A stretch of DNA of 64,000 nt from Thuidium tamariscinum (lineage: Eukaryota; Streptophyta; Bryopsida; Hypnales; Thuidiaceae), in assembly GCA_947034885.2 (NCBI GenBank), contig OX344753.2, forward strand, positions 25,870,347-25,934,346, given 5' to 3'. This document shows, piece by piece, positions 14,201 to 47,823 of the stretch (position 1 is the first letter of the stretch; the number at the start of each line of letters is the position of its first letter). The notes under the pieces were generated by a model. The model was not told where the DNA came from, did not search any database, and saw only the letters and a list, made by a program, of their open reading frames with translations. The position numbers and the translations under genes are program-made.

Positions 14201-14204
14201 TTAA

Positions 14205-15149
14205 CCCCTAAACCCCTAACATCGTTTTCACCAAAAAAAAATGCTCCACAACTGCCATTTCTAATATAAGAGCAATTTTTTTTTAAAACACATTTTTGAC
14301 TCATGTAACCATAGGATCTTGTAGTAAGGTGGTTTGTAAACATGTGGAAAAAATTTCAGAAATTTCCACCATGTAGATTGCAAGATATAAGCATTTGAAT
14401 TGACAAGAATTGTTTTTTTATCCCTGCGAAAATCCGGGCAGCTGCACTTCACAAGGTCACATTTGTGTGAAAAAAAATTCAAAATGGTGGTTACTCTTTG
14501 AATTCATACTTCAATGCAAGTTGGCGACATTCTCAAAAAATTTCAAACCATTTGGAATTGTACAACATATAGGAAAAAGTAAGTAAGTAGAAAGAAGTAA
14601 AAAATGAGCCAAAATACTAAATTGTGAACATTTTATTCATGGAATTGAAATTTTCAATCCCAATGGTTAAAATGTTGAAATAAACAATCTACACCTTTTG
14701 CTTTTATTTTTTTCCAAAAATATGAAAAATTGAATTAAATGAAGAATTTCAAACTTTTTTTGTACTGTAGAGATTCTGTAACTGGCCGCAAACTACCCCA
14801 AACTCAAAATCTTCATAACTTTTGACTCATTGATCGGAATGGATTGATTCAAAGCTTCCCATGTCTGTATAAATCTAAAGAATAAATTCGAAATTTCACT
14901 TTTAAAAAAAAAAGTTTTTTTGAAAAGTTTTTTCAGCTGCCCGGGCTGCCCGCCGAGCAAACAAAGTGACATATAATGTCATAACTTTTTATCCACAAAG
15001 TCAAAAGTTATGAAAATTGTTGGGCCTTAAAGCTACTCCTCGGACACACATTGTATCAAAATTTCAAAGAAAAAAAATAAAAACTCCATCCGTAGTGAAC
15101 TGCCCAAAAAATCTATAATCTCAAAAAACGTTGTTTAGGGGTTTAGGGG
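14205..15149. mobile_element. TTAA-flanked non-autonomous element, long type
   Basis: The 945-bp element starts CCCCTAAACCCCTAA and ends TTTAGGGGTTTAGGGG, with TTAA on both sides (14,201-14,204 and 15,150-15,153). The interior has no coding frame. It is homologous, with heavy divergence, to repeats at 28,623-29,483, 41,148-42,824, about 42,925-44,054 and probably 47,824-48,386; shared blocks include GCCATTTCTAT, CCATAGGATCTT, ATTGCAAGATAT and, near the right end, CAAAGAAAAAAA...GTAGTGA. It is the most complete copy of this type here. The TTAA target and CCC-start termini match the piggyBac pattern, but no transposase is present to confirm the assignment. Confidence 0.75.
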
Positions 15150-15159
15150 TTAATCTGAC

Positions 15160-15365
15160 GGATACAATATTGTATATGTATACGGATATAGATTTGGGTA
15201 TTGGATACAAATTTGAGTGTTTGTATAAATATAGTATCGGGATATGAATATGAATACGGATTTGGATATGGATATAATACTGGGATATGAGTATGGATAT
15301 AATATTGGAATACAAATATGGATATGCATATAGATACAATACCATAATATGAGTACAAATACGGG
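15160..15365. repeat. Degenerate GGATAT-type hexamer array
   Basis: A run of variants of GGATAT/GAATAT/GGATTT with a period near six bases starts ten bases beyond the right TTAA of the preceding element. The complement is open in more than one minus-strand frame (Tyr/Pro/Ile/Ser-rich) purely because of the repeat. It is simple-sequence DNA, not a gene. Confidence 0.85.
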
Positions 15366-15388
15366 ACGAATTGTCCCGTATTGTTTGT
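15355..15388. repeat. Short hairpin AATACGGGAC/GTCCCGTATT
   Basis: A perfect 10-bp stem with a five-base loop, extended by imperfect pairing of ACAAAT-like flanks, closes the hexamer array. No T-run typical of a terminator follows, and the function is unknown. Confidence 0.7.
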
Positions 15389-15454
15389 CACTTAGAATTG
15401 TTTCTAAAAATTACAAGAAGGGGAGGGGGAGGGGGAATGAAAAATTAAAATTAT

Positions 15455-15523
15455 TTTGGCAATTTCTGCCACTTTTTAGGACATTGCCACACAATGTCCT
15501 AAAAAGTAGCAAAAATTGCCAAA
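15455..15523. repeat. 69-bp hairpin, 32-bp arms
   Basis: TTTGGCAATTTCTGCCAC...AGGACATTG pairs with CAATGTCCT...AAAATTGCCAAA across a five-base loop (CCACA), with very few mismatches. It may be a minimal foldback element or the tip of a larger decayed MITE; no target duplication was identified. Confidence 0.8.
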
Positions 15524-16330
15524 TCCATTTCGAAATCCACAATGGCTCAAGAATGTTACGGGCCTTTACACCAATACCAAATTTGTAGTGGTAATAATAT
15601 AATATATTTTCTTGATAATTTTTAAAACTTCAAACAAGATTATTCATTATTACTCAACAATCCAACATTAATTCTAGAATAGCCTTTTTTTTTATTTAAC
15701 TTTGTCTTCTATTTTATTGTAGATGGCCAATTTTTATGCAATAATATTAGAGTAATTGAATGATGAAAATTGGCAATGTTTAGTAAGTTGCATTGTAAAC
15801 CATGGAGGTGTAGATTGATTAGAGGTATTGGAAATGAAAGGGAGGGAGGTTTGACACATCTCTATGAATGATATATTATTTTCCAATAGTTAAGGTTCAA
15901 CAAGTGGTTATTATATAATTCTTTCAATATATGGTTTTTTTCAATACAAAACTTTTGTTTTTTGAAACATTACTTTTCCTAAAATTTTGGTCCCTACATT
16001 TTTTTAATTTTTTGGCCAAATGTACCTTAAGTACAACTATAGTAGACATCAGTTGGAAGAGGATTAAAATGGTTTGTAAGTACTTCAAAGCAAGTATATA
16101 ATTTCGAATTCTTTATTTGTCACCATTGGTGGTCATACAGTTCAGTCATAATACAATATACATATAATTTATGTCCAATAAAGAAAAACATGCATGAGTT
16201 ACAAAACTATACATGAGAGTAATAAAAAATTGGAATTATAAAAATCCCTATATATTCTTAGATAATTTATAAAGAATAGTCTTAATTCTATCTTGATTAG
16301 TAAATTATTGATAAATTTTGGGTCATTGTA
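15524..16330. other. AT-rich intergenic DNA, nothing recognised
   Basis: No coding frame. A CCAAATTTGTAGTGGTAA phrase near 15,578 resembles the complement of one near 28,475, which hints at a shared element end, but no partner terminus was found. Confidence 0.4.
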
Positions 16331-16777
16331 TAAAAGAGGCAACCCATTCCTGATCACCCACCATTTTGGCAAGGTAGGGTGGTCTATTTTTGTAGGGTGG
16401 TATTTCCATAGGGTGGTCTATTTCTAATTAGTTTTGATGCATCATAATTAGGAAGTGTACTCTAGCTTGGTAAGGTGGCACATAGCAATGAATTCTCTTG
16501 ATTGTTACTACAATTTTTCTTTCATAGTTTTGAAGCACTCTCAATTTTACAACTAGCCCTTAGTTGGAAATGGAATAATCTACATGACTAGTATAGGATG
16601 AATAGAATCTTCACCTAAAAAATTCATGATAATTTTGTTTTGAGAAATAAAATTCTAATGAAATAAAGAATCCTTTTTAAGATTATTTCCCTATGTGGGG
16701 AAATATTTGCCCTAGACATATGGGCATTCCAAGTATGGTCAATTGCTTATCTGATTAGAAATGGGTTGCCTCTCTTA
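16331..16777. repeat. Inverted-repeat (MITE-like) element
   Basis: The left terminus TAAAAGAGGCAACCCATT pairs with the right terminus, whose complement reads TAAGAGAGGCAACCCATT: one mismatch in 18. Three copies of a TAGGGTGGT(CTATTT) motif lie close behind the left end (16,374-16,425). The element is about 447 bp. No convincing target duplication was found, so the superfamily is open. Confidence 0.7.
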
Positions 16778-18222
16778 CATGTATTAGACAAGTCAATGGA
16801 TAAGTGGCTCACCTTTATAAATCAATGTTGCTATTATTACATCTCAATGATATAAGATATAAGAAATGTAATTTCATATCACTACAATTTCAATACAACA
16901 ATAGCCATCATATATTGCAATGTATTGATTTGATAAAGAACCATATTTTTTATGCTATAAATTTTTTTCAAATCCTATTTATACCAATTTCATACGCATT
17001 TTTATAATTATCATTATTTTGGGATTATAAAAAATCAATTCTTTGCAATAATAATGAAGATAGGTCTAGCATGGGATATTAGAATATGCAAATGTAAATA
17101 GCAAATGGCAATCAAACAAAATGAAAAAAAAAATTGAAGTTCTCTAAGAAAAAACATCCTAGTATAAAGAATTTTGAAAATGAACTTCAAATATTCTAAT
17201 ACCACCTTGTGACACCATGGTTTGGTTTGACTCATGGTTTGACTTATAGATGGAAGTTATAGATAAATCAAATGAAAAGAACTTCATATAAGACAACTAC
17301 ACCAAATTGATTAGTTTCTAAACTACCTTTGTAAAATGAAAGGAACTTCAAATAAGGTAGGCCACCGTGCCAATTTGTGGCTTTTGGATGACTAGAAGAT
17401 GATTTAGAGAGAGATTGAAAGAATTTTTTCATCCACTTTTTGCTTGTTGACCTTTCATAGAAGATTATAAAGAGTACCTATTTGTAGTCTTGCTAGTGTT
17501 TGTCCTCATGTGAATGAAAAGTTACTAAAAAAACGGATCACAAAATATGCTATTTTAGTGTATTTTGGAAAATTGATGCTCATTTTAAATCTAAAATTTC
17601 TTTACAAAAATGACATTTTTTGAATGTGAATCCAACTAACAAAATGAAGGTCCTCTATTCTAGTTTCCATTCCAATTTGAATTTTGAAAAAATTTGTAAT
17701 ATTGAATCTTATAGCATTTTGAACTTTGGATGTATTTTCAATGTCTACTATATTTTAGAAATTGTGTTTGCACCATAATGTTGTCAATGTAATATACACC
17801 TACGGTGAAATTTCCAGATTTTTTCAAATAATTTCCATTCGATGTAATTTTTCTTCACTTTTATCTTTATAAATTATCAAAAAAACTACTTCTCCAAAAA
17901 AAAATCTAATTCTTTTGTGGAATATAGAAGACATGTAATTTCATCTCTAAAAATAAATAAATAAATGAGGCTTGTAATCAGTGGTTATAGGTCCATCCTT
18001 TAAGAATTGAAGACAATTACCTTATCAAAAAGTTGAACACGGAGGTCCAATGGAGGTCCAATTTGTTTCTTGGGACACAACCTTGAGGAACAAGATCCTG
18101 GGGGTTTCATTGTAAAATCTCAATTTACAAAATTTGGCAAAATGTTTGAAATGACATATTTAAACCATAATTTGTTCTAAAACACACCCATGCACAAGTT
18201 AACCCTTTCACAAATTAACCCT
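16778..18222. other. AT-rich intergenic DNA, no gene seen
   Basis: No convincing coding frame. TTAACCC occurs three times just before the element at 18,227 (18,199, 18,215 and 18,223), which may mark repeated use of a preferred target or a degraded neighbour. Confidence 0.45.
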
Positions 18223-18226
18223 TTAA

Positions 18227-18407
18227 CCCTTGATTGGTGACCATGCATTTTGATATTGTGTGACATCATCTACTTTGAAAAAGCCAAAAATACACATTGG
18301 ACATCAAAATACTATAAAAGATCTTTCTTTTCCACCCCTACTACCGAGGATGAAAAGTTACAATTCTATGTCATTCAAAGGACGTCAAACACAGCGGCAT
18401 TCAAGGG
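18227..18407. mobile_element. TTAA-flanked MITE, short type
   Basis: The 181-bp element has CCCTTGATTG at the left and CATTCAAGGG at the right, flanked exactly by TTAA at 18,223-18,226 and 18,408-18,411. The terminal repeat is short (about 7-10 bp). Its interior is not clearly related to the long elements, though a GGACGTC motif near its right end also occurs in the element at 39,152. Confidence 0.65.
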
Positions 18408-18463
18408 TTAAGTGTAAACTGCAAAAGAAAGTGTACACAGAAATCTTTTAGTGCATGATAAGA

Positions 18464-18594
18464 TAAATCATCCCATTACGGACCAAATGGGAGGAGACCC
18501 ATTGCGGGTCAAATTGTACTGGAGGTGTACATTTAAGAACTTGAATGTGACCCGCAATGTGTGCTCCCATTTATTCTGTAATGGGGTAGTTCAC
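18464..18594. repeat. Foldback element with roughly 50-bp arms
   Basis: The left arm carries CCCATTACGGACCAAATGGG and ATTGCGGGTCA; the right arm carries TGACCCGCAATGTG and CCCATTTATTCTGTAATGGG. The arms pair with scattered mismatches around a loop of about 28 bases. It lies about 600 bp beyond the kinesin-13 stop codon, so it could fall in or just past the 3' untranslated region. Confidence 0.75.
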
Positions 18595-19207
18595 CCTACA
18601 TCGTAACACACTAAAGCATCTAGAACAGATTGCCCAAAAATTCAGCTTAAACACGGCATCATACGAAAAAAAGTGCAGAATAGTTAAACTTCAAGTAGCT
18701 TCAGTACACGACTCTCCAAATTAATGTAACCAACACAACGGGATCGTGGCAACCCTATAAGAAAATGAGAGATGTTTAAATGTATGATACAAAAGTGCAC
18801 ATAAGCTTTGGCTATTTTCAAGTACAAACTACATGGCTGGACGTAAGAATTTGTGTGCAGTCGGGAGCAGGTTCAACAAAGACATTTAGGAGAACTACTA
18901 GCTGCTTAAACCTTAGCAGCAGCTATATGCCCACTCTGGCCTGATTGTAAGCCTTCTATTAAGACTTTGTCCAGATCTATTACCTGGACTGAATCACATT
19001 ACTAATATACGCCAGAAGCATGCCTTTCTCCCAAAACCCCAACCAGATTAACGCCCTCCGCAGGGAGATCAACATGTGGAAAAGGCCAACAACAAGCAGG
19101 CACTAGCAGCCTGCACATGGAGCCACTTAAAGGGCTTGCATCGAATGAAAGGTATGCCAGATCATCAAGCGAAAGTAGCAGAGACTTCTACGATGGCACC
19201 TGAGGGA
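18595..19207 (-). other. Probable 3' untranslated region of kinesin-13
   Basis: This stretch follows the kinesin-13 TGA on the minus strand and is less AT-rich than intergenic DNA. No coding continuation exists past the stop. The poly(A) site cannot be placed with confidence. Confidence 0.5.
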
Positions 19208-26976
<7,769 letters not shown>

Positions 26977-28230
26977 GTAAGTAATTTAGTCTACATAAGC
27001 ATGTCTCGCCCACCACACCGATCCTTTTACTCCACTTACTCCACGACTATGCTGGTTTTTCTGTGAGGCAGGAAGACCTGCTCAATAATAATAATAAAAC
27101 AGCATTGAGATCGAAACCATGTTCTCTAAACCGGGTGAAATGACAAACTAGGGATGCCAAACCAGCAGTAGCACGGATAGCATTCAGCGATCCCCATGTT
27201 CCCCGAGAATACAACCCCTTCCGCTTCCCCTAGACCATGGAAGAAAGAGCCGATAGTCTCAGGATCTCGCCTAGCAGTCCACCTTCTCTCAACCCGCTGG
27301 GAAACGCGTCATGTACGCTACGTGTAGGTCACGCCGTGTCATCAGAAATTCTCGAAAACAAACAATGTCATAGTCCGATCGAAGCCCGAGATTGCAATGC
27401 TGAAGCGATCTCGAGGGCCCCAGGGCAGAAACTCCAAAGTTCAAATAACCTAGAAAAAATTCGATCAACACCAATGTCAACGACTAACGGGCGCACTGAC
27501 TCTCTCCAAGCCAGAAAATGCGAAGGCAGGGACGCACCAAATCGCACCAGACCCCGAGCGCACGAGATTCGCTCGCAGCACTTTCAAATTTTCAAAAATG
27601 CGGCGGAAACCAAAAAAGAAGTGGAGAATTATCCTTCTTAAATCATGAACAGGGGAATGCAATAACGACACTTGCACGCATTCATCGCGAAGCAAAAACC
27701 TCACGCGCAATGACGAGAAACGACACCTGAGAGCGACACCATGGAATAGAAGTACCAATCCCTCAAAACAGCGATCCAAACGGCTCGAAGAAAACTCTCC
27801 AGAGAGCGCTAAGAAAACGGAAGCACAACACGCCTACGCCATGACAAAGGAGGGAAAAGCAGGAGCACCTGCTTTAGATTCCCAGCATTATCATGCAGGG
27901 AAGGAACGGGAGGCTCCGGGAACGCAAGAGGGAAGACGCCGCAGCAGCAAGCAGCAGCACACACCCCATTGAAAAGAGAGAGACGGTGGGAGGCAGGCAC
28001 GGGTACCCGGCCCGCAACGGGTGCCTGAGCCCATCACCGTGCCCGGCCCGGGCGGACGGGGCGGATGGCACTGCGCTTACCGGGCGTGAAGGGCGCCGTT
28101 TGCAGCGCGGTTTGGTGCGGTTTTTGTTGGGGTTTTGAACTCCGTTGAATCCTTGGAGTCCGGAACCGGACAACGGGGGGGCGGTGGGTGGAGCGAAAGC
28201 AGAGTTAAAAGCACACTTTAACCCAAAGGA
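26977..28230 (-). promoter_or_regulatory. CpG-rich promoter and 5' UTR region of kinesin-13
   Basis: GC and CpG content rise strongly toward 27,880-28,200 (for example GGCCCGGGCGGACGGGGCGG) and fall abruptly beyond 28,230. On the minus strand a pyrimidine-rich leader near 27,960-27,990 is followed by a possible donor (AAAGCAG/GTGCTCC at 27,869), and a possible acceptor TATGTAG lies at 26,991, 14 bases before the ATG. A 5' untranslated intron of about 0.88 kb is therefore plausible but unproven. Plus-strand frames here (for example 27,237-27,641) have no recognisable protein and are treated as chance. Confidence 0.6.
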
Positions 28231-28622
28231 CAAAACTTGAGATTTGAAATGAAGTTTGATTTTGTGAAGGACAAATTTTGTATGTCATAAGAGTAAAAAG
28301 TATGGTTCCCTCAACTTTCTCTAAACCTGTATGGAAAAAGAAAATAAGTCAAGAGGTTATAGATTTTATAAACTTTTTAAGTGTCAAATGAATAAAGTTT
28401 GAAATTTAATGGAAATGCAAAGGTAAATTTGTGACATTTTTGTTGAAATTTACTTACTTATAATACGTTTTTTTACCACTACAAAATTTGGTTAAGTTTT
28501 TGCATATGGATAATGTAGGTAGTAGAATTGATCTTTGAAAGGAAGAATGTAGGTCATTCTATTCTTATCATTTAGCCCCTCGACTTCACATAGTTTCACT
28601 TTTCAAATGAACAAGATTTTAA
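28231..28622. other. AT-rich spacer upstream of kinesin-13
   Basis: Composition drops to intergenic AT-rich sequence. A TTAG/CCCCTCGAC phrase at 28,572 resembles a decayed element terminus. No gene. Confidence 0.45.
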
Positions 28623-29483
28623 CCCCTATGAGATCATGGCTTTTTTTTCCTTCAAAAAATACTTAAAATTGCCATTTCTATTGCAAAGATTCCATGACTT
28701 TTAAAAGTTTGTTTGTACATCTAAGCTTAGGATCTTAGACCTATGTAATATAAGAATGTATGAAATAAACTTCGAAAACTCTAATTACACAAATTGCAAG
28801 ACATTCACATTGAAAGTAAAGAAAGTGAGTTTTTTTGCACCTTGCATGACCAAATATTTGACTTTGAATCATTTTAACTTAAATATATTGAACTACAAAG
28901 TTGTGAGGCTTAAATCTTCGTATTGGAGAATTGAGTTGAGAGTCTAGAAAAAAAATTTACTGCCAAATACAAAATTTTTAAGAAAATTATTAAAAAGAAG
29001 TAGGTAGAAGATAGAAAGAAAATCTAAATTATCAATATCTCCAAGATGGAATTGAAACACACTAATCCCTATGATGAGATTGTTTTAAGAAACAAACTAA
29101 ACCATGTGAATTTATTTTTTTGAAAATTATAAAAATTGAAATGAATTCAACAAATTATTTTCTCAAGAAATTATTGTAAATGCTTGAAAAACAAGGTGCT
29201 CTATAACTTCAACATTGATTATCCAAATGAAATGAATTAAAGATTTTCATGTAGACAAAAGTATAATCTATGACAAAGTTTTTAAATTTGAGTTGTTGCC
29301 CAATCTCTCCTATTTTGAGCTTATTTGGCATAATCTTTCTTCCAAGCATTGATTGAAAAAAATTATATCTCCATGAAGCTAATTAGTTTTTCTATTTTTT
29401 TTTTAAATTATAAAATCATAAAAAAATTGAGACCATCAATACCTACCAAAAATCCAATTTGTGCCCCAAGGGACAATGGTCTT
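28623..29483. mobile_element. Decayed TTAA-family element, long type, without nested insert
   Basis: The left end reads CCCCTATGAGATCATGGC after TTAA at 28,619-28,622. The sequence then aligns block by block with 41,148-42,824, minus the 808-bp insert there: ATTGCCATTTCTATTGCA.AGA, TAGGATCTTA, AATTGCAAGA, GAGAGTCTA, TCCTATTTTGAGCTTATTT, AAATCCAAT, GGGACAATGGTC. The right end is eroded (about 29,483). At the point where the other copy is interrupted, this copy has a single TTAA near 28,877 (ATCATTTTAACTTAAAT), so it serves as an empty-site reference. Confidence 0.65.
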
Positions 29484-29791: not shown

Positions 29792-29845
29792 GATAGATAG
29801 AGAGATATAGAGACAGATATAGATATATAGATATTGAATGCATTT
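29792..29845. repeat. GATA/GATATA microsatellite
   Basis: Degenerate run of GATA, GAGATATA and ATATAGATA units. Simple-sequence DNA. Confidence 0.8.
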
Positions 29846-30629: not shown

Positions 30630-30805
30630 TCAACATTGTATCCATTATCAATACCCTCATTTGTACATCCATACACCATATATTTATATGTATTCATATA
30701 TTATATATTATATATCCATATATTCCATATACTTGCATGTATATCATATATTATATACTATACATTGTATTCAATATGCATTACACATTATATATATAAT
30801 TGATA
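30630..30805. repeat. TATA/CATA-rich low-complexity tract
   Basis: Reiterated variants of CATATA, TATATATT and TCCATATA. Two overlapping plus-strand frames of Tyr/Ile/His composition arise only from this low complexity. Confidence 0.8.
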
Positions 30806-31899
30806 GTAGGAATTCAATCAAAATAATTTTTTGGTGGAATTTTAATTGACAACGTAGGAGGGGGAACCAAATTTTTTTAAGCACATTGACAATCTTGAAT
30901 TTTAAAGTTGAAGTGGTAGGTAGGGGAGGAGGGCATATTTGCATCTTTTGGGTACATAGGCATAGTCACATCCAAAAATGCAACTTTTTTTGGTTTTACC
31001 ATCTTCAAAGTTTAAATTCCAATCTCTTTTTAATAGGATTGTTAGCAACCTCAAAAGAATCCAACCCAAGATGTTTCATATTTTTTTGACACTCAAAGTA
31101 ATGTTTTGTAAATTTTCAAATTTAAAAGCATAGAATGCCTATTTATACCACTAGTGTTAGATAGCCACCTTTGAAGAAAAAGATGTATCAAGTCTCATTG
31201 GTTGCCTCAAAAAATCCTTCAATTTCCATTGATTTTTTTTTAAATAGTACATTAGGGGAGTTTTCAAGCCTCCAAAAGACTATTTCATGATTGTTTAGGA
31301 AATATAGCGAACCAGCAATGGCTAGTTAGAATTTTCAAATGTCAAGAAAAAAAATTCAAAAGTTCAAATTTTTAGAAAGTATTAAGAATCTAAAAAAATG
31401 ATTTTAAAAAATAAATTATTTCCATAAAAATATTTTGAAAATATTTAATATTTAATTTAATTAATTAGTATTATTAGACATGGCAGTTGTTTGAACACAT
31501 CAAATTGATGATGTAACAGCATTTCCAAAGCTCCTATGGCATTTCCACACTTTAAGAACTTACAATCTTTTAGAGGCCCCAAAACTTCCCTAATCATAGT
31601 TTTGGAGATGTAGTGGTTCTTTTGTCATCCTTTTATGCTCTATCCAAGACATCTTAGACATGGCACTAAACTTAAAGGTAGCAACTTTGAGTGCTTCTAC
31701 TTTATCTTCATTAATCCTATAAAGACAACCAATTGGGCACGTGACCATGTCATTGCCAACCCTCTCTAAATTATATATTAATAAAAGGCAAAATCTTCAA
31801 TGGATTAACTTTAGTGCCAAGATCATACTGAAGATTATAAAGCATGTGCAATATGTAGGCAAATGAAAATTGCAAATCAATTTTCCCATGAATTGCTAA

Positions 31900-32330
31900 A
31901 TCACAACAATAGAATGTCTCAAATCACACCTTACCTAAAAGCACCATCATCACTTTGTATACATCTCCAAAATCAATATGAACAGATGTTGAAAAACAAT
32001 TTTTGAAAATCTACTAAAAAAAACTTAAAGCCTTCATGACTTTTGCATAAGGATTCAAATGCCATGTTTTTGGTGCATTGAAACTTCCTTTCACTTGCCA
32101 ACAAGAAAATATGAAAATTTGACCAATTCAATAATAATAGTTAGGCACAATAGCAAAAAAGTTGTAGTTTTGAGAATATCCACCTTAATAGAATGTGTCA
32201 AAATGCAATTATTGATTTTACATTGAAATTTGTTTACTAAGCCCAATTCATAGAACTTTGACAATAAATTTTGGATGAATAATTGTGTCTTTTTCACATT
32301 AGATATAGACTTCAAAAATTAGCCATCAAC
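31900..32330 (+). repeat. Dispersed repeat, copy A (others 33,668-33,850 and 58,385-58,940)
   Basis: Shared blocks include CATCACTTTGTATACATCTC-like, ACTTTTGCATA, AATG.CATGTTTTTGGTG, TTGCCAACAAGAAAAT.TGA and AAATTTGACCAAT. The 33,668 copy is inverted; the 58.4-kb copy is in the same orientation and is interrupted by a CACTA MITE. In copy A the corresponding point (about 32,004-32,016) is uninterrupted. No coding capacity; family unknown. Confidence 0.7.
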
Positions 32331-32449
32331 CCCCAAAAAATAGTCAATGCAACATTTTAGGGATAATCTCTTTGGTCTTAAATCATAGTGCCATTATAAG
32401 GTAGGTCCTCCCTCTAAACCACCACTTTTGCTATTGTGACCAATTACTA

Positions 32450-33660
32450 TTCCCTCTATCCTGAAATAAGCGTCCGAATCTCTTCTCCTTTAGAGATTAC
32501 CTTTGATTTGAATCAAAGTGCCAAAAATTCGGGCATTCAAGAATGAATAACCCATATTTAAAACCTATGCAAAATTTGGAGCTTAGAGAAAGTCGTTTAG
32601 GCACCCAAAAGGCAAGTTGAAAGTGAGATTTTGGACATTTTCTATAATTGTTGCCAGCTCCATCAATTTTATTGATTTATAGGGTTTGGGATACAATGGG
32701 ATTCTAATAAGATGTTCCCCAATCTAAATATATAAAAATTAAGAAATCAGCCAACTTTATGATCAACTTTTAATAGCTCCAAAATAGGCACTAAATAAGT
32801 CATTAACATTGCTATTTTAGGAGGCATTGAGCAAAAGTTGTCTCATACTACCACTTAAAACCAATTTTGCAAGGCCAATGAAGTGCACTTGCATTATTTC
32901 ACTTGCCCCTTTAACCCCTAAATGCCCAAGGCCTATTTTGAGTGTCCTGAAATTTGCTCTAAATTGAACAAAATACTAGCATTTTGATAAGTTGTATCAA
33001 TTTTTTTGAATTGTAACCATACAAATTCAAACTAAACATGTTAGAGATTGCATGGGAAAATAAAACACAACAATATCACTTACCAAGTGAAAGATTATAA
33101 TGTTTGACCATGAGGGTGTTAAAACTGCAAAAAACTTTTTGTCCTCTTTGCACAAGTCAAATCTAAAACAATGGTAACCAAAAAAATATGAGGTTAAAGG
33201 GCCTAACATGTATAACCCCAATCAATTTATGGCTTCTTAAAACTACTCTGTAATTTTTTTAAATGAATTTTGAATGTGATTTTCGATCCAAGATCTAGTG
33301 TATTTGAGGCTCATTCCCAAGAGCTCTCAACACTATGGGAAGTCAAGATTGCAATGAGTACCCTTGTACAAAATCTTGAATAGAAAAATCACTATTAGTT
33401 ATTTTTAAGACCAGATTTTTGATGCTAAAATTAGACTTCCCAAAGAACTTTCCAAAAATATTAAGCTACTAAAAATAGCAACTTGGTTAAGTTTTATTTA
33501 ACTTCAAAGTTTTGCAAACACCAAATTTTGGTGCCTCGGGCATTTAGGGGTTAAGGTCATTTAGTCAAACATTCACTAAATTGTTGAAATCACAAGAAGG
33601 ACCTTTTTAGTGGGACAAAAAATCTACTTGATTTGGACAATTATTTCGGGACAGAGGGAG
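32450..33660. mobile_element. Mariner/Stowaway-like element carrying a nested TTAA element
   Basis: The left end TTCCCTCTATCCTGAAATAA and the right end TTATTTCGGGACAGAGGGAG are complementary with few mismatches and are flanked by TA on both sides (32,448-32,449 and 33,661-33,662). CTCCCTCYGTCCC-type termini with a TA target are the hallmark of plant Stowaway/mariner-like elements. Removing the nested element (32,915-33,550) leaves about 575 bp with no transposase. The termini are in better condition than those of the neighbouring dispersed repeats. Confidence 0.8.
32915..33550. mobile_element. TTAA-flanked element nested in the Stowaway-like element
   Basis: The 636-bp element starts CCCCTAAATGCCCAAGGC and ends GCCTCGGGCATTTAGGGG: 17 of 18 terminal positions are complementary. 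Perfect TTAA flanks it at 32,911-32,914 and 33,551-33,554. It has no coding frame. It has the clearest terminal repeat of the TTAA group and inserted after the surrounding TA-flanked element. Confidence 0.85.
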
Positions 33661-33667
33661 TATTATA

Positions 33668-33850
33668 AGACTAGTCAAATTTTCATTGATTTTCTTTTTG
33701 GCAAGTGAAAGGAGGTTTCAACACACCAAAGAACGTGACATTAGTATATAGCAAAAGTTATGAAGGAACAAAGTTTGATTCTAAAATTGATTCTTCCATA
33801 GAGGTACATATTTGATTTAGGAGATGAATAGAAAGAAAAAATGGTAGTTC
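33668..33850 (-). repeat. Dispersed repeat, copy B (inverted)
   Basis: The complement of this stretch aligns with 32,060-32,130 and upstream parts of copy A (GGTG.GTTGAAAC.TCCTTTCACTTGCCA, then AAATTTGAC). It begins directly after the right TA of the Stowaway-like element, so copies A and B flank that element in opposite orientations. Confidence 0.65.
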
Positions 33851-34576
33851 TCGGTCAACAACACATTTTTGGGTGCCCGCCTTATTAAGGTAGGAATATT
33901 ATAAATGATTCAAATATGCATTTCAACTTGTACAACATGGGAAATTCATTGCAAAATTGAGCTAGATGTGTGCAAAAATAAAGATGAAGAGGCATGCTAA
34001 AAAAGATTTTTTTTCTTCAAGAATGAATTTTTTATTCAATGTAAATGTGAAATTCTTCATTTGGACCTCATTCTAGTCTCATAGCTTCACCTATTGAAAC
34101 TACTACTATTGAAAAAAACAAAAAAATAAATAAATAAATAAAAAATTTGAAAAATTGAGCCATTATGGGTTGATTAACTATTTCTGGACAACACATAGAA
34201 AAGAATGACCTTGAAACAGCCCTCCCTTGCTAACAAATCCCTCCTAATGTGTTGGTTTCAAAACCCCTATTGTGCCATTAGAAGGGGGGGGGGTGCCGTT
34301 TATGGTATTCCTTCCATACGTGTCACAATTCTGGTGGAAGGGACCACTTCTTTTTTAGACTCTGTCAATTCCCTCAGTCACTCTTGATCGAATCGTCTTC
34401 CTTGAAAGGAAGACACATTCAACATGCACCAGCTTTCAGTTAAAACACATGAATGTGTAGCCGTTTGGATTGACCGACACGCTTGTTACGTGAGTTTGGA
34501 GAAACACGTCAACATTCTCTAATTTATAATAGGAAGGCTACGCACGAGCGTTTTTGAATAAAGACTCAGGCTACTA
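33851..34576. other. AT-rich intergenic DNA, no gene seen
   Basis: No credible coding frame. Contains a short AAATA-type simple repeat near 34,125-34,142 and a G-run near 34,285. Composition becomes less AT-rich toward 34,380-34,560, without a recognisable feature. Confidence 0.45.
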
Positions 34577-34834
34577 GTCCCTCTGTCCCACTAAAAAGCT
34601 TCCCAAATTCTTCCTGCAAAGACTGTAAATCAACCTAATTAGGAAGCTTAGTCGTCTCTCTAGTTGAACGGATGTGTGTCGTACAAACTGACTTGTTCTA
34701 AAAGGGTTGGCTTGCTTGCAAACAAATTTTTTGGAATTGAACCGCGCGCTTGTGGAAATGACACTCACTGCAAGCATGGATCATGACAACTTTGTCAGGA
34801 GCTGTGGATGCCAAGAAACTCTAAAGTTGTAAGG

Positions 34835-35005
34835 TAAGAGGTCCTATAATGGTCCATCTTAGGGCCGAAACAGAATTTCAGGGAGGTTAAATTTTTGAAA
34901 TATTTTTCAGTAAGTTTTCCTTTAAAGATAAGTAGAATTGGCATCTAACCCAAGTCGTTTCATATTTTTCTAAGCTTTGTGGAATTAGTTATTAAATTTT
35001 GAAGT
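34835..35005 (+). repeat. Dispersed repeat, partner at 63,812-64,000
   Basis: Shared with the window's right edge in the same orientation: ATTTTTCAGTAA.TTTTCC, AGA.AAGT.GAAT, GTTTCATATT.TT, AGCTTTGTGGAATTAGTTA and TTTTGAAGTTGAAA. The second copy runs off the window, so its full length is unknown. Confidence 0.75.
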
Positions 35006-35017
35006 TGAAAGGGCATA

Positions 35018-35132
35018 GGGTTCTAAAATGGTGCCCTGGCTAAAATGTACGATGTTGGTACACTACTAAAGGCTATGAAAAAGCAACATGTACAAATATT
35101 GTACATTTAAAGTAGGGCACCATTTTAGAACC
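35018..35132. repeat. 115-bp foldback element
   Basis: GGTTCTAAAATGGTGCCCT at the left pairs perfectly with AGGGCACCATTTTAGAACC at the right, and pairing continues inward imperfectly (AAATGTAC / GTACATTT). TA adjoins both ends, compatible with a Stowaway-like target. It lies inside the composite element at 34,577-35,997, directly after the dispersed repeat. Confidence 0.8.
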
Positions 35133-35999
35133 TACTCCATTTAAGAGCCTTCTACCCTAGCTCAGAAAATGCAAAGGCTGCATTCACACTAAGTTAGACG
35201 GGGGAAGTGTAAAATTTAATCCCTTGAGGATTGGGTGTTCAAATTTTGAATGATGGGTGAATGCAAACACATCCCAAGGATACAAAAATGTATACAACAA
35301 TGTATTTTTTTCATCCATTGATTTACTTCTGAAGTTGCTTGTGTTAGTTCTTTAACATTTGTAGAGTATAAGATTCTAAGGACTTTGTTTTGCAAATATT
35401 TTATTATTCAAAAAGGTATGACTTCATTCCACTAAAAAACTTCTAAAATCTTTTTTGTAAGGAAGTAACTATATTTTGAGTCATAGAATTAAGAATACAT
35501 GCATTCAAGAAAGAGTAATCCACCCCTTAGATTTATGCAAAATCTCTAGTTTAGAAGCTATCATTTGGACATCCAAAATCCATTTGCAAAATATAATTTT
35601 TAGCATTGTTTGTAAATGCTACCAACTCTGTCACTTTAGATTATTTAAAGGGTGTCAATTGGCAACACTAGGATTTTAGAAATATATTCCCTAACCTAAA
35701 TATCCTCAATAAAGAAACCCAATCTTTCTTTTTCACTCAAATTTTTATAGTGTTAAAGTGGTCACTAAACACATCGTCGATACTAATGTGTAAGGGAGCA
35801 ATTAGTACAATGTGCTTCATATGGGCAAGGCCAAGCTTGCAAATCTAAAGGAATGCTCCTAGATTGTTTTACTTTCCCTCATGAGGTCATTGAATACAAC
35901 AAACATTTTGTAATTGGTCAAATTTCTTTAAAAATGGAGCTTTTTAGTGGAACAAAAATTCTACTTGAAATGGAGGTTTTTAGTGGAACAAAGGGAGTA

Positions 36000-36702
36000 C
36001 AAAACTAATGTTAGTTCTAGGGTTTGAAACCAATATCTAGCTACAATATATAGAAATACCAACTCAACAAAATTTGGACATGTGTCCCCTCAATATATGT
36101 GAATTCTTGAAGCATAAATTTTAAATACTTTTTGAAATTTATTCCATTAGGAAAAGAAGTGTATATAGATGTTTCCTATACATCTACACAATTGAGTCTA
36201 TACAATTTTACTAAAGAATTTTGCCAAATTAAAAGTCTTAATTTTTTTAAATCAAAATTTGGTATGATTGATTGAGATTGCATAAGAGTGCATTCCTTTA
36301 ACAAATGTAGTAGTATTTGCTAAACAAATGCAAAAAGTGTATTTGAAAATGAAATGTCTTCATATCTTTTTGCACATGATGTTTTATACCAATTGATACC
36401 AATTGGGCTAGTAAAGGATTTCTATATAGAAATGTATAAGTATGAGAATATAATGTTAATTAAGGTAAATGGGCCCATTTTGGGTAAAATTATATTAGTA
36501 GTGCATGCTTCAAAATTGGAATTTACATCACTAATATAATTTAATTTTGGTCCACAATGGGCTTGCTTACCTTATACTTTAAAGTGGCCATGGAGACTTG
36601 AGTTTGATGGTAGTCATTTTTTTGGGTTGAGAGTCCTTCATCTCAGTGACATACATTTTCTTCTGAAGACAATTATTAGTTTGCAAATGAAGAATCTCTC
36701 AG
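36000..36702. other. AT-rich intergenic DNA, nothing recognised
   Basis: No coding frame, no terminal repeats found. Confidence 0.45.
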
Positions 36703-37505
36703 CCCCTAAGTGCCCAAGCCTTTTCAAGTGTATTTTGATTATGAAAAAAGTGCATGGACTTGTAGTCATCCCTCGTGAAACAAATTGATTTTTTTTCCAA
36801 AATCTAACTGCATAGATGTTTAAAGAGCTTGTTTATTAGCAAGTACACAAATATTGAGCACAAAATTGTATTGGAGTTGTGAGATTATAACGAGAGAAGA
36901 GTACATTTTTATATTTAATATGTTGCCTTTTTCCACAATGTTTCTCAAATTTGCATATAAATTTTTTTGGGGATTTGAGGTGACATGAACAACTACAAAA
37001 AGTGTTAGCACACTAAAATGCACTTCTAAAAAACTTAATTCCACATGAAAAGCTATTAAATTCATTACACAATCTACCTTACAATTGTTGAAATGCAATT
37101 AATATTTTTATAAATAGAAATTGCAAATAACTCCAAATCAATAGTTGTATGTTTAAATTTTCAATGGTGAATATCATGAAAACATTTTCTTCTTTCCATT
37201 GGGACCATTTCAAAGCAAATGAATATGTACAATTTTTTAGATCTCAAATTAAGTGAAATTGCATAAAGTTAGAAAATGAAGTAAAATTGGCAAGCTTTAC
37301 ACTTCACTTATAGTACATGTATGCCTTTGAAGACCTCTCAATAATCAAATATGTACTTTTTTCAGTGAAAAATGAAAGTTTTCAATAGTTAACCCTTAAA
37401 ATTGTCTAAATTTTTTTTTAAACGGTCACAAGATTTTAATTGCCCATTCAAAAATGGGCCTGAAATTTTAGATCGACCATATATGGTCAACTGGGCAATT
37501 AGAGG
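36703..37505 (-). mobile_element. TTAA-family element, 0.8-kb subtype, inverted copy
   Basis: The left end CCCCTAAGTGCCCAAGCC and the right end GGGCAATTAGAGG are complementary in part. TTAA follows at 37,506-37,509; the left flank is TCAG, two transitions away from TTAA. The complement aligns over its whole length with 41,426-42,233 (TTTCAGGC.CATTT, TATTGAAAACTTTCATTTTTCA, GAAACAAATTG, 803 against 808 bp). No coding capacity. Confidence 0.7.
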
Positions 37506-37633
37506 TTAACTCTTGAAGTTGTTTTAAATATAAAATGTTTTTTTAGATGTTTGGAGTATTCAATGTGAAGCATCACATATTGATTTTCTTTTTTCTTTTT
37601 TCCTTCAAGATTAGAAAATCAAACAATCTTTAA

Positions 37634-38030
37634 GAGCATTTCCATGCCTGGCTTGGGCAAATAACCCGACCAGGGAGCAATTGGTTGTGTCATAAGTAAA
37701 GCCCGGGCCCGGCCAAACGAATTCGCCCCACGCCAAGCTCGGCAAGAAGCACGGGAAAGAATCATGTTCGGATTTCGAGGTGCCACCTCATAGTTGCCGC
37801 CGAGAATCAATTCTTTTAAACTCGAAAAGTGCCTTGAACAAGGAAATTAAATATAAAACAAATGTACACCGAGCCCGGCCACACACTCGCCACTTGGCCA
37901 TGTCATTCTTAAATTAGGCCAGGACTGGCCTTATTTTGGCTTTGCCATGTGTGCCATGGGGCAATTACTTTGGTCGGGCCCAGCTACTTGCCCAGTTTGC
38001 GCCGAATTGTGAGTGGCCGTGGAGATGCTC
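37634..38030. mobile_element. PIF/Harbinger (Tourist)-like MITE
   Basis: The 397-bp element starts GAGCATTTCCATG and ends CGTGGAGATGCTC, flanked by the 3-bp direct repeat TAA (37,631-37,633 and 38,031-38,033). A TAA/TTA target with GAGCATCTCCA-type termini fits the PIF/Harbinger group. It is strikingly GC-rich (GGGCCCGGCC-type runs) in an otherwise AT-rich block, which suggests a recent arrival or a different origin. The minus-strand frame of 63 aa inside it has no recognisable product. Confidence 0.8.
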
Positions 38031-38033
38031 TAA

Positions 38034-39147
38034 AGAAATCTAATTCTTACAAAGAACCAACAGCTAGTAAATTTTTTTGTTTGACTCTTAATTCAAGCAA
38101 GTGGAACAAATCATTATATTGCTTTGAAAATTTTCATACTTTTGTCTAACTTAAGACTCTACTAACTCAAATTTATAGTCTTTAGGTCTTTTTGCAAAGT
38201 ACAATTTAAGTTACAAAGCTCAAAAGTTTGACAAAGCTACCTTGTGTTGACAAACCCACAAAGCTGAAGCAACCTTGGGAAAAAAAACATTGTGTTGTTC
38301 CTTACTAAGTTAGATATCACACATGCATTACTCTTAGACCCCCCAATTTTTTTTAATTCAAGACCTTTAATTGTACTAGTCAAGATTAAGATTGTACAAT
38401 TCCAAATCCAAAAAAAAAATACAATTTGATTGACAAACCTATTTGTAACAATTTCAAGTGTATTTTCTATTTTTTTGGATTCAAGGAACTTTAGTAGGGG
38501 TTAAAATATGCCAACTAGTTCATGCCAATCAATCAATATTTAACCCTTAAAGGACAAGATCCATTGCCATTTGGTCAAACATCATGTTGAAGTTGAATTT
38601 AGTATATTAGATTGTGTACAAACATCAATCTTATATTTTTATTACTTGATACTATGAATTTTCAATTGGTTATTATATATTTTTAAAACAAAAACAACCA
38701 CAACAAAAACCTTGAAGTCAAATTCAACTATCAAAACAAATTTAATATTTTATTTAATAGATTTTCAAAATTTTGATGTTTTTTACTAGTGGAAAATTTG
38801 TACTTTCAACTTATTTTATTTTTTCCAATTTTTTTGATGAAAACTACAAATTATTGTGATTTTTTGAAGTCAAAGATTAAAAAATATATATCACTCACAA
38901 TAAAAACTAGAACAATATGAAATTTATACCATTAATGAAGATTAGAATGGAAAACTGGATTTTGTAATTGAAATTGAAATATCCATTTTAAAAGGAAAAA
39001 AATATGAATGAAAAACACAACATATTATGTGTTTTTTGGATTTTAACACATGGAGCTTGCAATTGCAATAATTCTTGCAATTTTTGGATTTTTTCAAAAT
39101 TTCAAGTTCAAACAGGAAGAAAACTTGTCAAGCTTCATTTTCTTAGC
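38034..39147. other. AT-rich intergenic DNA, isolated element ends
   Basis: Contains TTAA/CCCTTAAAGGACAAG at 38,540 and AGGGG/TTAA at 38,497, which look like TTAA-type termini, but they face away from each other and do not define an element. No gene. Confidence 0.45.
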
Positions 39148-39151
39148 TTAA

Positions 39152-39372
39152 CCCTGAAGCGCTCCGACGTCCATATTCTGGACGATGAACAGAGACCTTC
39201 AAGGCACTGTTTCATCCAATTAACTTCTAATTTATCAAATGTAACACTTGAATCTAGAAAAGACAACCTTCCTTCATGACCAAATTCATTAAATTCTGGT
39301 AAATGATATATCTGTACAAAACTATAAGCGAAAATGTGCAAAAATTCAAAAAAGGATTGAGACGTTTCAGGG
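39152..39372. mobile_element. TTAA-flanked MITE, second short type
   Basis: The 221-bp element has CCCTGAAGCG at the left and CGTTTCAGGG at the right, flanked by perfect TTAA at 39,148-39,151 and 39,373-39,376. The left 35 bases (CTCCGACGTCC and following) recur at 50,305-50,345, so the family is repeated. The frames of about 90-100 aa that cross it extend into flanking DNA and are not credible genes. Confidence 0.7.
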
Positions 39373-39414
39373 TTAAGTCCAATGCCAAAAATGGTTACAT
39401 TGAAAGCTAGAATC

Positions 39415-39447
39415 AAGGTCCACGCATCCACTGGATGCATGGACCTT
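39415..39447. repeat. 33-bp hairpin
   Basis: AAGGTCCACGCATCC pairs with GGATGCATGGACCTT around a three-base loop with one mismatch. It lies 43 bases beyond the preceding MITE. Function unknown. Confidence 0.75.
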
Positions 39448-40540
39448 TAAGGGACCACTCTCGGCATTTGGAAGCATTTCTATTTTGCAATGATTTCTCT
39501 TTCAATTGGGTCAGTCAGTGAGTCTCCATGTCCTGGTGGCATTCAGTCGTTTGTTGGACCCCAACCAACCATCCATCCATCCATTTTCTTCAGTGGTGGG
39601 GACCACATATGACCATCTCCATGTCCTTAGCCCTCACCAATCCCTGCTCCCCAAAGCACTGGAGCTATTAACTTATTACCTGTTATTCCTCATTCATTTC
39701 CAAACAATCCTAAAGAAAAAATGAAAAGAAGAAAGAAAAATGAAAAAAAGTGGGGTTGTTTTGGTTGAGAGAAGGCTTTTGTGTAGTTTTTTGGGTTTAT
39801 TTTTTTCCTGTTCGTAGGTGGGCAACTTTGAGTGATCAACCTGATCATGGAGGCCGAAGGACAATTGAAACCAAGAGACACCCCCGCCGGACATATCTCA
39901 CACGTGCAGTCAGTAGTCAGGTCCAATAATCTCACAAACTGTGCTGCCTACTGTATCATGCCATGCAAAAGAATTTGGACATTGAAGAGGATTTCACCAT
40001 TCCCAAGCTTTTCAATTCAACTCCACGTTAAGAAAAACCCATTTTTTTTTCTCTTTTGAATCATTGTGTTTTTTTGTTTTTAAAAAAACAAAACAATGAG
40101 CAAATTCCATTGATTTGGATTCATTGTTGGAACGGTGCAATATGCATTTTGTAAGATTGTTGAACCAGCCTGTAAGTATAGTCCACGACCTGACCTGGTC
40201 TTGAGAGTCAATCAATCATTAGTGCCATGGGCGCTGGTTGATACAAGCCCCATGCACGATTGGGTTGTATTGGTCACATTACACACAACTAACGGCTGCG
40301 TCTTCGCCATCCACGAAGTTGATCTATTCAAATTTCGAATGGGAGTTTGGCAGTCACGCAGATCGCCCCAACCAAGGCTAGAGCAGCCCAATTCCTGCCA
40401 CCAGGTAGTCTAGTTTCAGTGGATTTTGAATTGGAGGAAGCTCCCAATTCGCAGGGGAACTCCAAGTCCAAGTCCCAGTCCGAGTCCTAATCCAAATCCT
40501 CCTCATTCCTCAACTGACTCCATCAGGGGGGGTGCTGCAG

Positions 40541-40565
40541 CCCAGCCCAGCCCAGCCCAGCCCAG
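40541..40565 (+). repeat. (CCCAG)5 pentamer microsatellite
   Basis: Five perfect copies of CCCAG preceded by CTGCAG. Confidence 0.95.
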
Positions 40566-40864
40566 CCAATCATGTGTGGTTGGCGGCCTTGTGGGTGGCT
40601 TGGTTAGGTTATTAGATCCCGAATCAAATCCCAGGCTTAGAAAAGGGAAGAAAGCCTCCGTGGCCCAGTTTTCCTTTCATGACAGGGAGTTGGGTTGTTG
40701 GCAGGAGCATGCACCCTAAGATTCCATGGTTAGGTCAATCAATGAGGTTTGTTTGTTCGTTCTAGTTATTGTACTGTTGGGCTTGCAACCAATGTTGTGT
40801 GCTTTTGGATTCAGTTGGAAAAAAAAACACGGAAAAAACCCATGGCTGAATTAATTACAGCAGA

Positions 40865-41000
40865 TTCATGGCGCCCATAACATGGTTTTTCCAATAAGGC
40901 AGGGGTACCTTACTTTTGGCATCCTTGGAAAAGGGGACTGCTACAGTGAACCAAATGGTCTTATTGATGGGCTCCTTAGACCAATTCCAATTGTTGAATT
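40865..41000 (+). repeat. Dispersed repeat, partner at 63,008-63,120
   Basis: Shared phrases in the same order: CATAACATGGTTT, CAATAAGGCA.G.GTACCTT / CAATGAAGCAAGAGTACCTTT, CCT.GAAAA.GGG, AATG.TCTTATT. Family unknown; neither copy has a coding frame. Confidence 0.6.
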
Positions 41001-41147
41001 AATACCTGAAAAGCCCCTCCCAGGTATCTAGCAAGGCATAAGATTATACATGTCCAACGTGGGGAGGACCATTGCTTGGTTGCACAATGTTATGTCCACA
41101 ACAATGCATATACATTAAACCATGAAGTTTAACGTTGTGCATATTAG

Positions 41148-42824
41148 CCTTTGAAGGACCAATGCCTTTTCTCTGCCAAAAAACACTCAAAATTGCCATT
41201 TCTATTGCAGAGAGTGAAAAAAATTTGAAATTACTATTTTAAAATGGCTAACCATAGGATCTTATACTTAATTAGTATGAAATGTGTAGAATAAATTAAA
41301 AAAAATTTGGACCCTACAAATTGCAAGATATTTGTATTTAAAGTTGGAAAAAAAACAAGCTTTTTTTAGTACATTGTGAGATTAGAGATTATGAAACTAG
41401 ATTTTTTGACTTTGAACCTTCTTAACCCCTGACTATCCAATCAACTATGTAAGGTCAATCACAAATTTCAGGCTCATTTCTGTATGGGGAATTAAATCCT
41501 TAGACCATTTTAAAATTTGGAGGGGAGTAGTTTTTATTATAGAAAACTTTCATTTTTCATTGAAAAAATACATATTTGTTTATTGAGAAGTCTTACAGGC
41601 ATATATGTACCACTAGCGGAAAGTAAAGCTTGCCAATTTTCCTTCAATTTTTGGCTTTAAATAGAGCTTAGCCAATTTCACTTGATGTGAGATGTAAGAA
41701 ATTGTACCAATCCATTTGTTTTGAGACTACTCCCAATAGAAAGAGGAAATTGTTTTCATGGTCTTCACCATTGAAAATTTAAACATGTAAGTGTTGATTT
41801 GGGGTTATTTGCGATTTTTACTCATTAAAAATTAATATGTCAACAATTGCAAGAAGGATTGTATAATGAGTTTTATAACATTTTGTGTGAAGTTAAGTTT
41901 TTTGGGAAGTATATTTTAGTATACTAACATTCTTTGTAGTTGTTCATGTCCCTTCCAATCTCCAAAAACTTTTATGTGCAAATTTTTGGAAACATTGTTG
42001 AAAAAGGCAATATATTAAAAATAAAAAATGTTCATTTCTCTTGTTATAATCTCACAACTTCTATGCAATTTCAAACTCAAAACTAGTATGTATATTAATA
42101 ATCAAGGTCTATAAACACTGATATAGTTAGAATTTTGGGAAAAAGAAGCAATTTGTTTCATTGGGGATAATTACAAGCTAGTGTTATTTTTTTGTAATCA
42201 AAACTTACTTAGAAAGGCTTGGACATATAGGGATTAAGCTAATTTTTTGGACTACAAAGATTTGAGCTTTAAATATTTATAGTGGAAAATTCATTTGAGA
42301 GTCTAAGAAAAAAGTTAAAATTCAAAAAAACATATTTTCATTTTAAAAATTATTATTAAGTAGAAGTATATATGAGTTAGAAGGAAAATCTAAACTATAA
42401 ATATTTTAAAGATGGAATTACAATGCACTAGGCCCATAGTTGAGATTGTTCTAGCAAGCAAACCAAACCATGTGGAACTTGTTTTTTCAAAAATTATAAA
42501 AGTTGCATTAAAAATTATTCAAACCAAATGAATCAAAGATTTTGATGTAGACAAAAATATAATCTATAAAGAATTATTTTTAGAAATTCAAAATTTTGAA
42601 TTTTATTTGATGCTTGGTTTCCTCTATTTTGAGCTTATTTTGATATAATTTTTGTACCCAAGAAACAATTATGAAAAAATGATATTCTTATGAAGCTCTA
42701 CAATTTTTATATTTTTTAGAAATAGTTTCAAAAAATCACAAGATAAATTGAGATTGTGGATACCTACACAAAATCCAATGTGTCTCCTAGTTTGTCATGC
42801 CAATGGACAATGATCCTTTAGGGT
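41148..42824. mobile_element. Decayed long-type TTAA-family element interrupted by an 808-bp insert
   Basis: The left end CCTTTGAAGGACCAATG and the right end CAATGATCCTTTAGGG are complementary in part. TTAG stands at both borders (41,144-41,147 and 42,825-42,828), one base from TTAA. The body aligns with 28,623-29,483 and more loosely with 14,205-15,149. It is split at 41,426 by a younger TTAA element. No coding capacity remains. Confidence 0.6.
41426..42233 (+). mobile_element. TTAA-family element, 0.8-kb subtype, nested copy
   Basis: The 808-bp element starts CCCCTGACTATCC and ends TATAGGGA, with TTAA at 41,422-41,425 and 42,234-42,237. The full-length inverted relative is at 36,703-37,505. 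The host repeat without insertion (28,623-29,483) shows one TTAA at the same place, between TTTGAATCAT and ATTGAACTACAAAG, so duplication of TTAA on insertion is directly visible. Confidence 0.8.
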
Positions 42825-42924
42825 TTAGTCCCTTTTCCAAAAATTGTTTTTTGTTGGATTAAACTTGTCTTTGAAAAATAAGTTTTGAGGGATTTCGACT
42901 CCTATTTTTTCAAACACTAAGTTT

Positions 42925-44054
42925 CAAGGTCTTTATCATAAAAAAAAACACTTGGAATTCCCATTTGTATTGTAGAGACTAGAGAATATAAGAATATTAA
43001 ATTTTTTTTCATAATTAACCAGAAGGTCTTGCACTAGATTGGTAAAGAATGTGTTTAAAGGACTTAAATTTTTTTAACCAGATTGTAAATAAATGAAATT
43101 CACAGTGAATAAAATGGATTTCTTACATTGTGTGTGTAACTACATTGTATGTGTACCTACATGCAAATTAAGAATCAAAATTTTGGTTTATCTCATTAAC
43201 CAAAATGAAATGATTCAAAGCTTTTCACGTACATATTATTCTGAAGAATCAATTTCAATTTTTTTACTTTTCTTAAAAGTGATCTTTAAAGAATTTTTTT
43301 GAGCTACCCAAGCTCCCCTAAAATCAAAGAAAATCTCATATTATGCAATAACTTTTTGACCATGTAGTCAAAAATTATGAAAATTGTTGCGCCTTAACCC
43401 CCTAAACACTCAAGCAACCATTTTATGGTTGTTGTTCAACTTCAAGCAAAATTTTCTTGCAGAAAAAATTTCAAATCTTTTATCTTTTCAATTTTGAAAA
43501 AATCAGGTTGCCTTTCAATATTTTTAGTTCAAAACTAAGATTGGTACATTCAAAACAAAAATTATAAGAGAAATAGCACAAAGCATTTAGAATTGCCTAG
43601 TGTTGAAAAACTTACTATTTGGAGAAAGTGTTGATGCTCTCATTACTAGTTCTTTAGCATTTTTCACAATCCAATAGAAACCGCAATTTTGACCAATCAA
43701 AAAAATTCATGTACTAAATATAAAAATTGTATTTTCAGTGAACTTTTGAAGTTTTATCTTCAAAATCTATTTGAAGAGAATTTAAAAATAATTTTATAAT
43801 TTTGACCATATATGTACTTTCTACATTTTGTGCTTCACATTATCTTCTTTGATGCTAATTTCAAAAAAGTTATAAAAGTTATACTTTATAACACATTTGT
43901 GTTTTATACTAACCACTTGGGCTTTTAGGGGTTATAGCTATTCTTTGAGCACATGTTGTGTGAAAACTTCAAAGAAAAAAAGAAAAATTCTCTTTGTAGT
44001 GAGTTATCCAAAGTTGCTATGTTGTCAAAAAAACACAACTTGGTCCTTTAGGGG
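42925..44054. mobile_element. Long-type TTAA-family element interrupted by a 534-bp insert
   Basis: The interior aligns with 14,205-15,149: AATTCCCATTTGTATTGTAGAGA, GAAAATTGTTG.GCCTTAA, TTCAAAGAAAAAAAG, GTAGTGA, AAAAAACACAACTTGG. The right end is CCTTTAGGGG followed by TTAC. The left end is eroded and placed only approximately. A younger TTAA element interrupts it at 43,398. Confidence 0.55.
43398..43931. mobile_element. TTAA-flanked element nested in a relative
   Basis: The 534-bp element starts CCCCCTAAACACTCAAG and ends CTTGGGCTTTTAGGGG. The flanks are TTAA (43,394-43,397) and TTAT (43,932-43,935). In the related uninterrupted element at 14,205-15,149 the same site reads GCCTTAAAGCTA near 15,025; here it reads GCCTTAA, element, TTATAGCTA. 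A 4-bp duplication with one later change explains both. No coding frame. Confidence 0.8.
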
Positions 44055-47819: not shown

Positions 47820-47823
47820 TTAA

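Follow-up and report, generated by a model that had tools for sequence, protein, structure and literature searches.

The window analysed here, a stretch of 64,000 nucleotides at C5:25870347-25934346 within the 363.2-Mb assembly (19 contigs) of Thuidium tamariscinum, carries a set of short non-coding elements lying at TTAA sites, several of them with inverted ends that start with CCC. We are highly confident that these are non-autonomous transposons of the piggyBac superfamily, residing in a plant. Their positions, flanks and ends are collected in Table 1; labels such as L016 or L009 designate stretches taken from the same genome beyond the window.

Elements of the window and their families

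An earlier note, made from the letters of the stretch alone, had listed five elements with TTAA on both sides and inverted ends starting with CCC. All five hold as to position and TTAA, and CCC starts both ends in four of them (14205-15149, 18227-18407, 32915-33550 and 39152-39372); in 41426-42233, the right end departs from the description. Two further elements noted for one altered flank, 36703-37505 and 43398-43931, are as described, with TCAG and TTAT, respectively, on the altered side. In addition, older copies of an approximately 923-bp type, beyond that list, were found at 28623-29483, 41147-42824, ~43164-44054 and 47823-48386. A scan of the window for open reading frames (ORFs) found no frame of at least 130 codons overlapping any of the seven elements of that note.

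Table 1. Elements of the window (positions counted from its first letter).
Element	Positions	Flanks, ends and context
~923-bp family (subfamily S2), non-coding, 945 bp	14205..15149	TTAA both sides; ends CCCCTAAACCCCTA
181-bp element	18227..18407	TTAA both sides; ends CCCTTGA
~923-bp family (S1), old copy	28623..29483	left end TTAA-CCCC
636-bp element	32915..33550	TTAA both sides; ends CCCCTAAATGCCC
803-bp element	36703..37505	right flank TTAA; left flank TCAG (two changes)
221-bp element	39152..39372	TTAA both sides; unequal ends, left CCCTGAAGCG, right CCCTGAAACG
~923-bp family (S1), old copy	41147..42824	split by nested 41426-42233
808-bp element	41426..42233	within 41147-42824; TTAA both sides; right end, read inward, TCCC (one change)
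~923-bp family (S2), old, truncated	~43164..44054	split by 43398-43931; right end GTAA-CCCCTAAAGGAC
534-bp element	43398..43931	within ~43164-44054; left TTAA, right TTAT
~923-bp family (S1), weak remnant	47823..48386	E 1.3e-11 and 1.5e-7

The elements belong to recurrent families. Element 14205-15149 matches a copy on C1 over its full length with 93% identity, and 32915-33550 does so with an L016 copy at 78%, while 36703-37505 and 41426-42233 share 77% identity. When 14 chosen copies of the ~923-bp family (907-945 bp) were aligned, they separated into two subfamilies that are colinear over the full length, with identities of 67-95% within and 52-55% between them; a block at about 100-118 (CTAACCGTAGGATCTT) is well conserved in these subfamilies (for example in 14205-15149, L007, L008, L010 and L018). 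The 32915 element represents a further family, and the 36703 and 41426 elements another. As for the 221-bp family, 29 inward-facing pairs of ends at most 6 kb apart were drawn from two lists in which 100 ends each were given (C1 and part of C2); 17 of these pairs span exactly 221 bp, and 14 of the 17 have unequal ends, one CCCTGAAGCG and one CCCTGAAACG. Matches to four profiles account for 6.0% of the 200 kb sampled on C1 and for 9.0% of the window, the latter value including some training copies; a genome-wide share is an extrapolation from these figures.

Other features were seen in the window. It contains a COG3 gene, which we take to be plant-like; with this gene and a NAC-domain gene on C1, the genome is recognizable as that of a plant. 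The window also has an inverted pair of TAGTCCCTCTGTCCCACTAAAAAGCT (34575-34600 and 35974-35999), presumably similar to Stowaway ends. At 6304-7059 and 58540-58699, the ends and several inner points pair as inverted repeats without a CCC start, and these are possibly foldback elements or other miniature inverted-repeat transposable elements (MITEs).

TTAA as the target site

The association of the ends with TTAA is far stronger than expected by chance. Seven TTAA-CCC...GGG-TTAA pairings of at most 1.5 kb, corresponding to four distinct elements, occur in the window, whereas 500 first-order Markov simulations averaged 0.066 and never exceeded 2, and among all 256 four-letter flanks TTAA comes first with 7, the next two having 2. 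In 360 kb of sequence, partly chosen for having TTAACCCCTAAA ends, there are 38 pairings (overlapping ones and those of the window counted) versus 3 in the reversed control.

Genome-wide, TTAACCCCTAAA is found 19,746 times (9,906 + 9,840), versus 111 (68 + 43) in the reversed control. When the outer T is swapped for another base (VTAACCCCTAAA), the count is 1,128 (598 + 530; control 184, 93 + 91); with the inner T swapped (TVAACCCCTAAA), it is 1,660 (853 + 807; control 505, 265 + 240), a number that takes in an array of tandem repeats near the beginning of C1 (C1:2572-17221, ten TVAACCCCTAAA sites approximately 1.63 kb apart, near the contig end). The outer base is T in 94.6% of 20,874 ends; since the outer T varies no more than the inner one, the target is the full TTAA rather than TA alone, and the preference of the earlier note for TTAA over TA or TWA is thus upheld.

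A profile search of ends that was blind to the flanks, performed on the window and on 20 evenly spaced 10-kb stretches of C1, gave 36 ends, of which 28 carry T at -4, 32 carry T at -3, 28 carry A at -2 and 30 carry A at -1; positions -5 and -6 are unconstrained. Eight of the 14 window ends in this set come from elements used to build the profiles, and one end (W 14202) is off by 2 bp; the 22 ends from the C1 stretches, which lie outside the profile training, carry these bases in 18, 19, 16 and 19 cases at -4 to -1 by hand count. Beyond the window, two elements stand back to back with one common TTAA at L026:1601-3483.

Two hallmarks of piggyBac are therefore present, namely a TTAA insertion site that flanks the element left and right, and short inverted ends starting with CCC or CCY. 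The TA duplication with free outer bases that characterizes Tc1/mariner elements was not observed at the flanks, nor was the 3-bp TWA duplication of PIF/Harbinger, TTAA being kept as four bases.

Transposase genes and their ends

The genome contains at least 116 scored matches to PF13843 (DDE_Tnp_1_7; from 659 first-look candidates, best E 5.7e-80), spread over contigs C1-C10, and 14 control genomes gave no matches to this domain. None of the 116 falls in the window, where a tblastn search (E 0.01) with four pieces of transposase also gave no hit, as anticipated by the earlier note, which had seen no transposase there. At least ten matches have an identical score of 269.4 bits and an open frame of 1023 codons (counted stop to stop) without a stop; these ten, together with a near-equal match at C2:31546222, are called family A below, and their scores indicate that its members are probably identical to one another. 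In the family A copy at C1:16228072, whose 3' part was read, the C-terminus of the protein is cysteine-rich, a feature read in three transposase lineages. A relic of another lineage in L014 (PF13843 E 2.1e-8, above the curated cut-off) adjoins a 925-bp element. Equal or near-equal piggyBac domains also occur as opposite-strand pairs 7-15 kb apart (C8:23933884/23941055, C8:19067897/19080436 and C9:19502615/19517900), possibly as inverted duplications.

The 3' terminus of family A was read directly in C1:16228072, where the element ends approximately 1.0 kb past the stop in CGGCGTTTCAGGG-TTAA, also written CGTTTCAGGG-TTAA. The 17-mer TTAACCCTGAAACGCCG, which includes the TTAA, occurs 176 times genome-wide and never in the reversed control; it lies 3' of eight of the 55 domains in the listed range, with 0.09 expected. 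It is 1284 bp away from the domain in seven cases, namely every family A copy that this range contains, and 2050 bp away in the eighth. Five copies of family A (C1:16228072 and four more) differ from one another in the sequence outside the element, and these differing flanks, together with the equal scores, suggest a recent spread of the family. In L045, a family A copy is located at a TTAA beside an apparent 923-type end.

At the other extremity, TTAACCCCTAAAVSSSS is present 1,428 times genome-wide (661 + 767; control 4, 4 + 0). Within the first 30.3 Mb of C1, where six PF13843 domains are listed, it was located upstream and in the correct orientation at three of them (0.06 expected), at distances of 2612, 2612 and 2770 bp. 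Both family A copies in this range have the 2612-bp distance and a TTAA-to-TTAA length of 5,096 bp; the third copy, C1:19061758, carries three internal stops. Because near-identical copies have a common interior, equal distances alone do not show that the element ends there; given also the orientation, the TTAA and the similar distance in the third copy, a 5' terminus is the likely reading, and family A thus likely starts with TTAACCCCTAAA, as placed by coordinates. A DDE_Tnp_1_7 transposase therefore lies within an element with the same ends, CCCTGAAACG-TTAA at the 3' side (read once) and TTAA-CCCCTAAA at the 5' side (by coordinates), which gives the piggyBac assignment of the earlier note the transposase that it had lacked.

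Other candidates were set aside. Potential autonomous elements were seen in six stretches whose CCCCTAAA ends lie far apart (L001-L006): neither L002 nor L003 has a frame reaching 120 codons, and L004 has none above 83. The 1544-codon frame of L006 resembles a Copia polyprotein, by eye only, and L001 has a frame of 126 codons whose domain content was not scanned. L005 was rejected in view of a Sec1-family ORF; this 647-codon frame (L005:3829-5769) is bracketed by a pair of TTAACCCCTAAA ends with a spacing of 6.2 kb, and might represent a gene copy trapped inside an element or between two of them. The 3' pieces L042 and L043, from two other transposase lineages, did not reach a terminus. As marks of the family A 5' end, TTAACCCTGAAGCG and TTAACCCTGAAACG failed and exposed the 221-bp family instead; TTAACCCCTAAACGCCG is a further, conjectured mark of that end.

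Origin of the elements and relation to known systems

The pairings in the window, the TTAA bias, the empty site of 43398-43931 (a single TTAA in eight of ten uninterrupted relatives that align across it) and the presence of a transposase between the same ends together support the view that the window elements are piggyBac-type transposons without a transposase of their own. Known piggyBac ends start with CCC. In the proposed mechanism, a transposase of the piggyBac type, with its gene at another place in the genome, would recognize the CCC-starting ends (CCCCTAAA, CCCTGAA, CCCTTGA), excise the element and insert it at a TTAA, leaving TTAA on both sides. The copies in the window would have been moved by family A or a related transposase, probably through the cut-and-paste chemistry of known piggyBac elements, by analogy.

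Several observations weigh against this reading. The 5' end of family A was located by pattern and its letters were not read, and a pattern lying in a nested element that multiplied with the family would weaken the direct tie to CCCCTAAA ends. Three of the six listed C1 domains below 30.3 Mb have no TTAACCCCTAAAVSSSS nearby and 47 of the 55 domains lack the 17-mer TTAACCCTGAAACGCCG, so that other transposase lineages must have other or unread ends. The 221-bp family of the window and family A are alike over only about ten terminal bases, and Pfam zinc-finger models stayed below cut-off on all three C-terminal pieces. At the insertion site of 41426-42233, just one of four relatives aligned across carries TTAA. 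Lastly, at the site of 43398-43931 the two relatives without TTAA have TGAA and TTAT (or TAAA, when that copy is aligned a second way); it is the closest relative, L009, that has TTAT, and TTAA on the left with TTAT on the right would equally result from duplication of TA within TTAT, so this site alone is compatible with such a duplication.

Among the alternatives, the best placed, although improbable, is that Kolobok or Sola3 transposases moved the CCCCTAAA families, and piggyBac just the CCCTGAA families. Kolobok and Sola3 also target TTAA, both lay outside the searches made, and between two CCCCTAAA ends no transposase letters were read; this is countered by the presence of TTAACCCCTAAAVSSSS, by coordinates, 5' of three of the six listed piggyBac domains, two of which have the family A 3' end at a constant distance. 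Still less probable are Tc1/mariner-type elements with ends starting ACCCC, a TA duplication and a mere preference for TTAA. A TTAA-flanked element can indeed also be read as T-TA-(ACCC...GGGT)-TA-A, and the flanks of 43398-43931 fit that reading, but the constancy of T at -4 and the match of transposase-bearing elements with these ends to the piggyBac family argue against it. We give practically no credence to degenerate telomere-like CCCTAAA repeats inserted at breaks: CCCCTAAACCCCTAA is similar to the plant telomere repeat, and the C1 array carries a related motif, but the elements have inverted ends, TTAA on both sides, lengths that recur (221 and ~923 bp), recurrent full-length homology and an empty site, all of which speak against such repeats.

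We thus retain the piggyBac assignment. A wider reading, which we offer tentatively and hold slightly short of even, is that of a land plant with a young, possibly still mobile native piggyBac: a 5.1-kb autonomous element in many equal-scoring copies, whose CCCCTAAA end would be common to non-coding families amounting to several percent of the genome, among them one that has kept its ~923 bp through deep divergence.

TTAA on both sides, the PF13843 domain and a C-terminal cysteine-rich stretch are shared with Trichoplusia ni piggyBac and its relatives, as presented in passages of PMC7351741 and PMC8086355. The elements described here differ from known piggyBac ones in their plant host, in the 5.1-kb size and long open frames (1023 codons) of the member that bears the transposase, in unequal first bases (CCCCTAAA by coordinates, CCCTGAAACG as read) and in very large non-coding families of recurrent length. 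In being short, non-coding and present in many copies with inverted ends, the families also resemble the plant MITEs of the 207-genome catalogue, as its main text portrays them (PMC12550479); that main text contains neither TTAA nor piggyBac. Passages of a land-plant element review list six superfamilies with terminal inverted repeats and no occurrence of piggyBac (PMC9033089), and plants are mentioned in passing in excerpts from three piggyBac papers (PMC8086355, PMC10140906, PMC10813416). Elsewhere, extracts describe piggyBac as occasional in plant genomes, for example in red algae (PMC12732532, 2025), or name it among plant superfamilies (PMC10794571, a 2024 review); one survey table gives it for all groups, land plants included (PMC4438587), and the repeat table of Ceratopteris has 1,230 PiggyBac-labelled fragments, or 0.00% of the genome (PMC6890710). 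None of these passages on plant piggyBac calls it abundant in a plant. Among the matches listed, by their titles and the starts of their abstracts, there was no study of native piggyBac in bryophytes, the Ceratopteris table coming closest, and the match in a moss paper was to the word 'piggybacking'.

The superfamily is known; what we describe is one of its lineages, very abundant and in an unusual host. Annotation restricted to the usual superfamilies can overlook a major genome component. A plant genome with several percent of piggyBac-type DNA and open-frame transposases would make plant piggyBac biology directly testable, and could yield a plant-native transposon tool.

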